A stretch of 64,000 nucleotides of DNA, from assembly GCF_016028255.1 (NCBI RefSeq), contig NZ_CP065707.1, forward strand, positions 186,001 through 250,000. The letters are read 5' to 3'. This DNA comes from Streptococcus oralis (lineage in GTDB: Bacteria; Bacillota; Bacilli; Lactobacillales; Streptococcaceae). Numbering within the stretch: position 1 is the stretch's first letter; the number at the start of each line of letters is the position of its first letter. The translations under genes and the position numbers were made by a program. Below, one piece after another: positions 3,399-59,895 of the stretch. The notes beneath the pieces were generated by a model that was not told the origin of the DNA, did no database searches, and saw only the letters and a program-made list of their open reading frames with translations.

Positions 3399-3491
3399 AA
3401 AAAAGCCACCTGATTGGGTGGCTTCTTTAGGGAGATTATTATGAAAAAGAAAGGATTAGGATTTCATTAAATAAAGTTAGGAGGTCTTTAT
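3399..3491 (-). ncRNA. CiaR-dependent small RNA (csRNA), copy 1
   Basis: On the minus strand a CiaR-type repeat (GTTAAG-N5-TTTAAG, 3519-3535) is followed after exactly 15 bp by TATAGT (3498-3503), then about 93 nt ending in a GC-rich hairpin with six T (3399-3423). The RNA contains CTCCTAACTTTATTTAAT and CTTTTTCATAATAATCTCC, which are anti-Shine-Dalgarno and anti-start-codon sequences. This is the architecture of the pneumococcal csRNAs, which act by base-pairing with mRNA starts. The plus strand shows the apparent start ATGAAAAAG only because the RNA is its complement. The start site is inferred from the -10. Confidence 0.85.
3404..3423 (-). terminator. Terminator of csRNA copy 1
   Basis: AGCCACC (minus strand, from 3423) pairs with GGTGGCT around a short loop and is followed by TTTTTT (3404-3399). 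Confidence 0.85.
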
Positions 3492-3518
3492 CTAATGACT
3501 ATATGATACATGAGGAGA

Positions 3519-3599: not shown

Positions 3600-3691
3600 A
3601 AAAAAGCCACCTGATTGGGTGACTTCTTTAGGAGATTATGATGAAAAAGAAAAGTTTGGGATTTCATTAAATAAAGTTAGGAGGTCTTTAT
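3600..3691 (-). ncRNA. CiaR-dependent small RNA (csRNA), copy 2
   Basis: This second copy lies about 200 bp upstream of the first, same strand. CiaR repeat ATTAAG-N5-TTTAAG at 3719-3735, 15-bp gap, TATAGT at 3698-3703, about 92 nt of RNA, and a hairpin with a T-run at 3600-3625. It is nearly identical to copy 1 in the first 50 nt and the terminator, and differs in the central segment (CATCATAATC instead of CATAATAATC). The CiaR site begins only 14 bp after the acetyltransferase stop codon, so read-through from that gene is possible. Confidence 0.85.
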
Positions 3692-3718
3692 CTAATAACT
3701 ATATAATACACGAGGAGA

Positions 3719-8508: not shown

Positions 8509-8596
8509 AAGAAAAGCTACCCTAACGGTAGCTTTCCTAGGAGATTATTATGAAAAAGTTTAGGATTCTAATTAAATAAAGTTAGGAGATCTTTAT
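8509..8596 (-). ncRNA. CiaR-dependent small RNA (csRNA), copy 3
   Basis: A third csRNA: a perfect CiaR repeat TTTAAG-N5-TTTAAG at 8624-8640, the same 15-bp gap, TATAAT at 8603-8608, about 88 nt, and a hairpin (AAAGCTACC/GGTAGCTTT) with TTTTCTTG at its end. The anti-start segment ACTTTTTCATAATAATCTCC and the CTCCTAACTTTATTTAAT block are conserved, but the terminator stem differs from copies 1 and 2. It lies between the UPF0210 gene and the histidine phosphatase gene. Confidence 0.87.
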
Positions 8597-8623
8597 TTAA
8601 TGATTATAGTATACACAGTCATC

Positions 8624-10429: not shown

Positions 10430-10516
10430 ATGATGATGAGTGTTCCCGCTAGGACCGAAGTCCCAGCGGTAGACCAGAGCTAGACTAAGAGCACAAGACT
10501 CCATCATCATAACACT
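10430..10516 (-). ncRNA. L17 downstream element-like structured RNA
   Basis: Directly downstream of rplQ on the same strand lies a strong hairpin, CCGCTGGGAC-TTCG-GTCCTAGCGG (10469-10446, a UUCG-capped stem), flanked by two complementary pairs: AGTGTT with AACACT and ATGATGATG with CATCATCAT, ordered so that both can form only as a pseudoknot. Its position matches the L17 downstream element described in lactic acid bacteria, a 3'-UTR RNA of unknown role. I rely on position and structure, not on a covariance-model search. Confidence 0.75.
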
Positions 10517-10533
10517 CAACAAAATTGATGATT

Positions 10534-42005: not shown

Positions 42006-42021
42006 AAAAACTAATTATCTG

Positions 42022-42168
42022 TTTTTTCGTTCAAGCTTTAACTCCATAGGGCAATGAAATGAGCTTAGTCTTGGCCTTCGCGACCAGGACTGTTGACCAA
42101 CGAGTAGTGTCTCCACTGCTTTGCGGTAGTCATCCGTATCCCTATGGTAGCCTCACCTACCGTTTTCG
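42022..42168 (-). promoter_or_regulatory. M-box (ykoK) magnesium riboswitch
   Basis: The minus strand holds the conserved M-box blocks in order: GTAGGTGAGGCTACC, GGGATACGG, CGTTGGTCAACAG, and CCTATGGAGTTAAAGCT. It begins near the predicted start of transcription, and a terminator follows. In this class bound Mg2+ compacts the RNA and allows termination. Ends are approximate. Confidence 0.8.
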
Positions 42169-57753: not shown

Positions 57754-59442
57754 ATGAGTACAAAAAAACTGATTGCTAGTGAATTGGCTAGCGTCATCGA
57801 TAGCCTAGATCAAGAGGCTATTTTAAATTTACTAGAACAACCAAAAAACTCTGACATGGGAGATATCGCTTTTCCTGCTTTCTCACTTGCAAAAGTCGAA
57901 CGCAAAGCCCCTCAAATGATTGCTGCTGAAATCGCTGAAAAAATCAACAGCCAAGCCTTTGAAAAAGTTGTTGCAACTGGCCCTTACGTCAACTTCTTCC
58001 TTGATAAAGCTGCCATTTCTGGAGCAGTTATCAAAGAGATCATCGAAAAAGGATCTGACTACGCTCAACAAACGGAAGGCAAAGAGCAAAATATCACGAT
58101 TGACCTATCAAGTCCAAACATCGCAAAACCTTTCTCAGTAGGTCACTTACGTTCAACTGTTATCGGAGATGCTCTTTCTAATATCTTTAAGAAAATGGGC
58201 TACAACACTATTAAAATCAACCACCTTGGAGACTGGGGTAAACAGTTTGGTCTTCTCATGGTTGCTTATAAAAAATGGGGAAGTAAGGAAGCCGTAGAAG
58301 CTAATCCAATTGACGAATTGTTAAAATTGTACGTTCGCATCAATGCTGAAATCGAAAATGACCCAGCTCTTGATGATGAAGGACGTCTCTGGTTTAAAAA
58401 ATTGGAAGATGGCGATCCAGAAGCGACTCAACTTTGGCAGTGGTTCCGTGACGAAAGTTTGGTTGAGTTCAACCGCATTTACAAACTGTTGAACGTTGAA
58501 TTTGACAGCTTAAACGGGGAGGCCTTCTATAATGACAAGATGGACGAAGCCGTGCAAATCCTTGAAGAAAAAGGTTTGCTAGAAGAATCACGCGGAGCTA
58601 GCATTGTCAACCTCGATGATGTTGAACTTCCACCCGCTATGATTAAGAAATCTGACGGTGCAACTCTCTACATCACACGTGACATTGCAACAGCTATCTA
58701 CCGTGCACGTACTTACAATTTTGTTAAAAATGTCTACGCAGTTGGTCAAGAGCAGTCTAACCACTTTAAACAGTTAAAAGCCGTCTTGAAAAAAATGGGA
58801 TTTGACTGGAGCGATGATATGATTCACGTAGACTTCGGTTTGGTAACCAAGAATCGTCAAAAGCTCTCTACTCGTAAAGGAAATATCATCCTGCTCGAAC
58901 CTACCCTTCAGGAAGCTATCAGCCGTGCCAAAGCACAAATCGAAGCGAAAAATCCTGACCTCGAAAACAAGGAACAGGTTGCCCAAGCTGTCGGAGTGGG
59001 AGCTGTTAAATTCTACGACCTCAAGACTGACCGCCGAAATGGTTACGACTTTGACCTCGAAGCTATGGTTTCCTTTGAAGGAGAAACTGGTCCATACATC
59101 CAATACGCTTACGCTCGTATTCAGTCTCTACTTAGAAAAGCAGACTTCCAACCAAATGCTCAAGCAAATTACAGTCTAAATGATGCTGAAAGCTGGGAAA
59201 TTATCAAACTTCTCCAAGACTTTGCCCGTGTCATCAAACGCGCATCTGTTAACTATGATCCGTCGCTAATCGCTAAATACGCAATCAGCTTGGCTCAAGC
59301 TTTCAACAAATACTATGCTCACACTCGTATCTTGGATGAAAGTCCAGAGCGTGACAGCCGTCTAGCCCTCAGCTACGCAACAGCTGTTGTTCTCAAAGAA
59401 GCCCTTCGTTTGCTTGGAGTAGAAGCACCAGAGAAGATGTGA
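57754..59442 (+). CDS. argS: Arginyl-tRNA synthetase
   Basis: 562-aa class I synthetase charging tRNA-Arg. The N-terminal Add-1 domain, the HIGH-like [12 protein letters not shown] motif, the ArgRS-specific KLSTRKGN in place of KMSKS, and the anticodon-binding DALR domain ending in [14 protein letters not shown] before the ATG. Followed by 500 bp of unusual hairpins before the next gene. Confidence 0.98.
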
Positions 59443-59514
59443 TTCAGTACTAACAATTGGAACTAAAGTTCCTAATTGTTAGACGCTAGCCGCTTATATG
59501 CGGACTAGCTAACT

Positions 59515-59739
59515 GCTTCACTAGTCATGACCCCTAAATATAATCGATTTAGAGGCCATGACGTCGTAACTATGGTGATTTGGCTTGGCGCTTCACTAGT
59601 TCTGGGACATAAATATTATCGATTTATGTCCCAGAACGTCGTAACCAGTACGAATTGCCTAAACGTTTTACTAATTCACCAAACCAAATGAAATCGGTTT
59701 GGTTTGGTTCATGTCGTAATCTTTAAATCACTTAATTGC
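59515..59739 (+). repeat. Three tandem 75-bp hairpin modules with variable arms
   Basis: Modules start at 59515, 59590 and 59665. Each has the flank GYTTYACTA, a 16-nt arm, a 7-nt loop ending ATCG (ATAATCG, ATTATCG, GAAATCG), a 16-nt complementary arm, and GTCGTAAY, with 19-nt spacers. The arms differ (10 of 16 and 8 of 16 positions shared between neighbours), yet they pair at 14, 16 and 14 of 16 positions. Five base pairs change on both sides between modules 1 and 2 and eight between 2 and 3. Not CRISPR: what is conserved is the flanks and loop. Confidence 0.85.
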
Positions 59740-59895
59740 AAAGCAATCTAAGTAACTAACGCCAAATCCTATTCGGTCTTTGAGTTGGTGCTTTACTAGT
59801 CTTCATTAAAAATTGGACGGACGTTTCGGTTAAAGGTCAAGACCGTCTTGTTTTATCTGTCGGATACCTGTTCCGCTAGTCTAATCACTTAGTTG

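Follow-up and report, generated by a model that had tools for sequence, protein, structure and literature searches.

Tandem hairpin modules downstream of argS in Streptococcus oralis and their possible relation to mobile BOX-type repeats

Several described repeat systems resemble the element considered here. REP sequences are conserved within a genome. The attC sites of integrons, which occur as arrays, are recognised by the shape of a folded strand more than by their sequence. Among streptococcal repeats, the BOX family of S. suis is described as bounded by boxE (115 nt on average) and boxF (133 nt), which surround boxB modules (Croucher et al. 2011, PMC3049150). Two further repeats, RUP (~107 bp) and SPRITE (an 18-bp duplex with a U-rich tract, located near gene 3' ends), are both AT-rich (PMC3049150). 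In addition, sanguinis-hairpin and ScRE have been presented as candidate structures restricted to Streptococcus and without Rfam numbers (Weinberg et al. 2010, PMC2864571).

The window analysed here is a stretch of 64,000 nucleotides from S. oralis (contig NZ_CP065707.1, positions 186,001 to 250,000). A preliminary description had reported three 75-bp hairpin modules with compensatory arms after argS (ORF 57754-59442, gene name from NCBIfam). The modules at 59515, 59590 and 59665 match the geometry given for them, 9 + 16 + 7 + 16 + 8 + 19 nt, together with the flanks and the NNNATCG loop, and neighbouring modules differ by exactly the five and eight two-sided pair changes that had been counted. 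The 75-bp module is present, but it is not the complete unit, which is ~131 nt long and begins at 59439, because modules 2 and 3 are truncated ~131-nt units; its bounds had been drawn too narrowly. Similarly, the array does lie after argS, but it is not argS-specific and belongs to a genus-wide family found at many genes. The features of the array are:

59439..59448, + strand: 5' strand of the closing stem P0 (GTGATTCAGT), placed by the R2 alignment and including the argS stop codon TGA at 59440-59442
59450..59482, + strand: H1, 9 bp, a one-base 3' bulge, 5 bp and a TAAA loop
59485..59509, + strand: H2, 5 bp, a one-base 3' bulge, 4 bp and a 6-base loop
59512..59521, + strand: 3' strand of P0 (ACTGCTTCAC), whose 3' end is the YTYAC flank of the preliminary description
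59524..59562, + strand: H3 of unit 1 (module 1), arms 59524-59539 and 59547-59562, loop ATAATCG
59563..59569, + strand: conserved tail of unit 1, GTCGTAA
59575..59644, + strand: unit 2, shortened, without H1 and most of H2; H3 arms 59599-59614 and 59622-59637 form a perfect 16-bp stem
59648..59719, + strand: unit 3, shortened; H3 arms 59674-59689 and 59697-59712
59721..59806, + strand: decayed unit 4, recognised by eye against intact argS units; H1-like and H2-like hairpins and TTTACTAG are retained, H3 is gone

The arms of module 1 form 14 Watson-Crick pairs with two A.C-type mismatches, those of module 2 are fully paired (16/16), and those of module 3 form 13 Watson-Crick pairs with one T.G and two T.C/C.T. 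The three hairpins have shuffle z-scores of -3.45, -6.93 and -3.84, and the window contains the three-part pattern 3 times, compared to a mean of 0.01 in shuffles. The R2 model matches the full argS unit at 59439-59569 with an E-value of 1.5e-30, which is partly by construction because this unit belongs to the sequences from which R2 was built (18 of the 22 full units discussed below). The model search gives no match for decayed unit 4 (59721..59806). On balance, we lean towards reading the argS array as a tandem, partly decayed array of a ~131-nt non-coding module from a Streptococcus-specific family related to mobile BOX-type repeats.

The complete unit has been defined by reading the flanks of copies in other genomes, which place the hairpin at the end of a larger structure. 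The units share one architecture, whose geometry is nearly constant while the helices are almost unconstrained in sequence. Read along the sense strand, the closing stem P0 surrounds the bulged helices H1 and H2 and is followed by H3 and then GTCGNAA. The 5' strand of P0 is 10 nt long and usually begins NTRA, with the stop codon, where present, at positions 2-4. It is separated by 1 nt from H1, which consists of 9 bp, a one-base bulge and 5 bp and often has a TAAA loop. A 2-nt linker (AC) leads to H2, with 5 bp, a one-base bulge, 4 bp and a loop of 4-6 bases. TA separates H2 from the 3' strand of P0, also 10 nt and ending in YTYAC, and a second TA precedes H3, which has 15-16 bp and the loop NNNATCG.

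The proposal that the folded form is under selection is borne out by covariation in H3 modules, full units and metK lineages, and the covariation holds in genomes beyond the window. In 54 streptococcal H3 modules, all required to have at least 12/16 standard pairs and the motifs, 15/16 pairs show two-sided changes; there are 290 two-sided and 9 one-sided cells, the rest being unchanged or unpaired. Sliding the H3 partner by 1-3 columns lowers the pairing from 90.4% to 30-46%. A second set of 22 full units from many loci was picked from 52 that fit the geometry, after removal of near-duplicates (>88% identity) and with an entry threshold of at least 12/14 (H1), 8/9 (H2) and 5/10 (P0) Watson-Crick pairs. 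Two-sided changes are present in 42/49 pairs of these units (339 two-sided vs 5 one-sided cells), 0/500 shuffles reach the observed values and slides give 30-41% pairing. The paired fraction of this set is inflated because the units were chosen for fitting the geometry, and the H3 loop looks slightly misaligned in two of them (L205 and L023).

Two individual sites show the same behaviour. In the metK leader, seven lineages chosen by hand from 26 units have H3 left arms that are 30% identical on average (13-67%); pairing is 85% between the two arms of one unit and 34% when arms are swapped. At pyrF, the 5' strand of P0 is coding sequence, and a codon change from AGT to GCG is accompanied by the matching change in the 3' strand of P0. 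What is kept is the fold, not the sequence.

The family is limited to Streptococcus as far as searched. The full model is positive in 87/98 Streptococcus genomes, with at most 35 candidates scored per genome, and finds no match in 11/98 under strict filters. Under strict filters, the H3 model matches 30/246 genomes from the order, every one of them belonging to the same genus out of 64 (Streptococcus), and gives no match in the 63 other genera; these are 30 matches among the 34 Streptococcus genomes listed, while 196 match-less genomes of the 246 are unlisted. One exact DNA pattern, searched in one genome per species across 84,980 species, finds 71 stretches, 71/71 titled Streptococcus, in species that include S. 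mitis, S. suis, S. equinus, S. ratti, S. sobrinus and S. bovimastitidis. One pattern scan (71/197) takes in chance matches in coding sequence, such as L005, L007 and L008, and its reversed-pattern control gives one or two matches in many genomes. A viral origin was rejected, with viral contigs giving no match to one similar exact pattern.

Copy number ranges from none found to ~120 per genome, and tandem arrays vary in unit number between genomes. With the full model and E-values up to 1, the window's genome yields 10 matches, of which three are at argS, two each at prfC and metK, and single ones at grpE, at purM and in the gap between pdhB and pdhC (gene names as read). The H3 model adds two further matches at glyQ, where three units can be read by eye, and prfC is followed by a fourth match to the three-part pattern, whose arms are unrelated. 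Two genomes, G097 and G036, give 120 and 123 full-model matches with 150 candidates scored in each.

NCBIfam names for the genes upstream of the element include argS, prfC, nrdE, groEL, pyrF, grpE, pheS, pdhA, dnaK, obgE, ftsX, sufB and carA, and one further upstream gene is CorA-like, below the NCBIfam cut-off. Downstream genes include metK, glyQ and purM. The stop codon often lies inside P0. For sense genes that end at the element, the stop codon is mostly 79-82 nt before the first H3; the distance is 70-76 at pyrF, in most grpE copies and in some of those at obgE. Two cases have 87-88, shortened units have 41 and 54, and a few sites including carA, purF and one nrdE have 95-146. Occupied argS and prfC ends use TAA, TGA or TAG. 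In a set of argS and prfC loci that overlap, so that some sites are counted more than once, argS ends of the GTGATTCAGT type have TGA in 22/22, the other types have TAA with one exception, and empty argS ends have TAA in 14/14. This suggests that the element supplies the stop codon. A strict link between stop codon and element type was rejected since the association is loose at prfC.

The element is patchily present among related genomes. Counted by eye, 6/20 argS ends (one decayed) and 10/20 prfC ends are occupied. At glyQ, G019 carries the element and G007 and G001 do not; at purM, it is present in G007, G025 and G001 and missing from G019, G003 and G024. In the argS, prfC, glyQ and purM comparisons, no position occupied in all genomes compared has been seen. 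Among the prfC ends lacking the element (L130, L135, L132, L137 and L138), several genomes carry another hairpin directly after the stop codon, for example one with a ..CAGTCTGGGGGACTG.. stem.

A second copy of the gene start or of a leader segment lies downstream of the element at glyQ and purM, and in some of the species also at metK, and simple insertion does not explain these repeats. In the glyQ and purM cases, the ribosome-binding site and first codons flank the element on both sides, and by eye the two copies differ mostly synonymously. Such repeats have been observed in L043 (G000:C1:1100170-1100584), L190, L207, L323, L327 and L333, and in L042, L336 and L340; in L327 the upstream start codon is lost. 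The metK leader itself is interrupted by the element, in a segment that we take to be the SMK riboswitch (SMK box). In the leaders of L038, L057, L219, L244, L255 and L315, the element is flanked by TTTGTAAC (or TTTTTAAC) on one side and a G run on the other. A search of the metK locus L038 against Rfam finds nothing, which the insertion may explain. With at least seven lineages, 30% arm identity and 85% pairing, the metK copies resemble long retention under selection as much as insertion.

Dispersal has reached ~120 matches in each of G097 and G036, partly in composites with inverted BOX-like ends. Thirty loci have been fetched from the 243 matches in these genomes, and 13 carry one arm family, which is present at 8 places in G097 and 4 in G036 (L355 and L363 overlap). 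L355 and L356 are the same site in both genomes and carry this family, whose copies have flanks that are similar over tens of bases. On inspection, the matches are often in inverted pairs. The ends ATACTC..AAAATC and GATTTT..GAGTAT are presumably the terminal inverted ends of pneumococcal BOX. An inverted pair of ATACTC..AAA ends within 800 nt is present at 11/30 loci of G097 and G036, compared to 0.0 per 30 in shuffles and 0/58 control loci from other genomes; the matching is loose (up to 6/19 differences). The array had been described as not BOX, which is correct for its layout, since that is not the pneumococcal one, but the same fold lies inside inverted BOX-like ends in these two genomes. 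No such ends have been seen by eye around the argS array. At L341 (G001:C1:508783-509263), an apparent BOX element is inserted in H3 of the purM-associated element.

In ordinary genomes the copies look old, because the most alike arm pairs (≥87.5%) between differently labelled loci are one site under two labels, and the arm comparison between loci reveals no recent jumps. A looser 70% grouping gives 6/32 arm families that span more than one label, partly again one site with two labels. Chimeric hairpins composed of two arm families also occur.

Based on these observations, the best-supported explanation is a mobile module that is non-autonomous, is recognised by shape, is related to BOX-type repeats and is analogous to REP/REPIN. 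Recognition would depend on the shape that the module takes when a single strand folds, probably the complement of the neighbouring mRNA, and a putative DNA-processing enzyme or host factor would copy the module or insert it beside N|NAA. Stop codons (TAA) may be favoured as sites because the P0 strand is able to provide one of its own, which leaves the gene intact. The argS array and other solitary copies would remain in place as insertions, and unit number would change by recombination between tandem units. We infer the strand, the single-stranded DNA state, the insertion at N|NAA and the existence of a mover. A bolder version, which we offer as a tentative possibility, is a structure-only mobile element whose mover reads the folded-DNA shape, with its closing stem, two bulged hairpins and one 16-bp hairpin, and almost no sequence, whose insertion at NAA lends a new stop codon, and of which BOX-type repeats are composites, the module being the older.

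A search for a co-occurring recombinase had been recommended, and Y1 transposases and reverse transcriptases have been looked for; neither tracks the element. The Y1 transposase PF01797 is present in 16/30 element-bearing and 2/4 element-less genomes, in 6/8 high-copy and 5/8 low-copy genomes, and is absent from 14/30 carriers. The reverse transcriptase PF00078 is present in 9/30 element-bearing and 1/4 element-less genomes, and none is found in the window's genome. Both were therefore rejected as movers, which points to a mover of another kind or to most copies no longer moving. A group II or other reverse transcriptase-dependent retroelement was set aside, as PF00078 occurs in only 9/30 carriers, and so was an IS200/IS605-derived MITE, as there is no cognate transposase association and no conserved end hairpins. 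In the window's genome, the sole match to a Y1 (IS200-type) transposase is in two pieces (G000:C1:426156-426474).

The alternative that survives best, although we consider it unlikely, is a cis-acting mRNA element, in which a fold of the sense RNA, located behind the stop codon or within the leader, adjusts the decay, processing or downstream translation of housekeeping operons. Copies at stop codons have the sense orientation, several of the sites lie between cistrons (pyrF|pyrE, grpE|dnaK and purF|purM), the sense RNA of the argS array folds with a z-score of -8.7 relative to shuffles, and the fold is kept at metK across lineages. On the other hand, its presence is patchy among related genomes, the copy between the genes read as pdhB and pdhC is antisense, and the metK leader is interrupted. 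The mismatch spectrum, obtained with strand-neutral, Watson-Crick-only filters, also argues against it. In 239 terminator-like stems used as a control, G.T (129) exceeds A.C (60), whereas the sense strand of H3 has the reverse, G.T 33 and A.C 53, with T.C/C.T 127 and G.A/A.G 7. On the complementary strand, the H3 mismatches become wobble and purine-purine pairs. Among the roles suggested in the preliminary description, a sense multi-hairpin RNA is disfavoured by this spectrum, and a protein recognition site or recombination substrate is the favoured direction.

A chromosomal hairpin site that serves the host (in protein binding, chromosome organisation, transformation or replication) and has been hijacked by BOX-type repeats appears quite unlikely. 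It would agree with the retention of the fold at the metK position despite full sequence turnover and with the presence of the element in 87/98 genomes of the genus. However, copies range from none found to ~120, 11/98 genomes lack a match under strict filters, and no position is occupied throughout the genomes compared.

A structured RNA from the opposite strand, antisense to the gene, is improbable in our view. Weinberg et al. used G-U pairs to argue about the strand of the L17 element (PMC2864571). Read on the complementary strand, the H3 mismatches are G.T-like 53 to 33 and purine-purine 127 to 7, and predicted folds are more stable there in 12/16 elements, with one tie. When the modules are collapsed to 39 arm families, the purine-purine bias is significant (59 vs 13; 23/26 informative families agree), but the G.T bias is not (28 vs 42, p 0.12), and H1 has no G.T bias (3 vs 3). 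A strong strand claim from G.T vs A.C alone was dropped for these two reasons. There is also no promoter-like match on that strand between 59400 and 60000, and the element has no Rfam match. The strand data as a whole disfavour sense mRNA folding and favour the complementary strand, as single-stranded DNA or RNA, and they are suggestive only. Finally, template switching between the arms of neutral palindromes could produce covariation even if the fold were not selected. This would fit the very few one-sided states (9 vs 290 and 5 vs 339 two-sided cells) and the chimeric two-family hairpins, but is very improbable given the nearly constant four helices, bulge positions, linker lengths and loops and the paired codon change in the coding P0 strand of pyrF.

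The mobile-module reading also has to be placed among named families. That no named family has this layout had been stated before, and in Rfam no match on the element reaches the gathering threshold, mir-5615 and symR lying far below their gathering scores. Elsewhere in the window, Rfam identifies three csRNA genes above the gathering score (3399-3496, 3600-3696 and 8510-8601, - strand), an L17 downstream element (10446-10518, - strand) and an M-box magnesium riboswitch (42015-42166, - strand). The array was rightly separated from a terminator series, as no T run follows H3; an intrinsic terminator was rejected on this ground, and a terminator scan flags only the inner part of H1. The layout also differs from that of CRISPR, and CRISPR-like repeats, RUP and SPRITE were rejected on structure or sequence. 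In the open-licence literature searched, no description of this fold has been found. Sequence-based repeat finders would miss the family because it is mainly the geometry that is kept.

Like the element, BOX-type repeats are modular, streptococcal, extragenic and dispersed, and form stem-loops (PMC3049150). As described, boxE and boxF are close to the ~131-nt unit in size and layout (PMC3049150). The accessible part of that source describes BOX-type repeats for S. pneumoniae, S. mitis and S. suis, and contains no genus-wide solitary stop-codon modules, four-helix fold or covariation (PMC3049150). RUP and SPRITE, as described there, are likewise small interspersed streptococcal repeats, but lack the four-helix fold (PMC3049150). 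The element may overlap boxE/boxF and possibly sanguinis-hairpin or ScRE, and either of the last two could be a partial earlier sighting of it. The module offers a common, testable building block for streptococcal repeat families whose movers lack firm assignment, and it shows housekeeping genes with structured insertions at their stop codons throughout a genus of medical importance.

Outside the streptococci, REP/REPIN sequences with their RAYT transposases are described as short palindromic extragenic units that form clusters and opposite-orientation pairs and are probably non-autonomous, as is proposed for the element (PMC2817692). In contrast to REP, the arms of the element are free, its geometry is fixed and no Y1 transposase is associated with it. 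Conservation of an arm family within a genome is not seen between loci of ordinary genomes; in G097, one arm family is present at 8 places. The attC sites of integrons resemble the element in its proposed recognition by shape and in its arrays; unlike them, the element's arrays, read by eye, have no R-box consensus or cassette genes. If the mover reads shape and not sequence, this system would join attC and REP.
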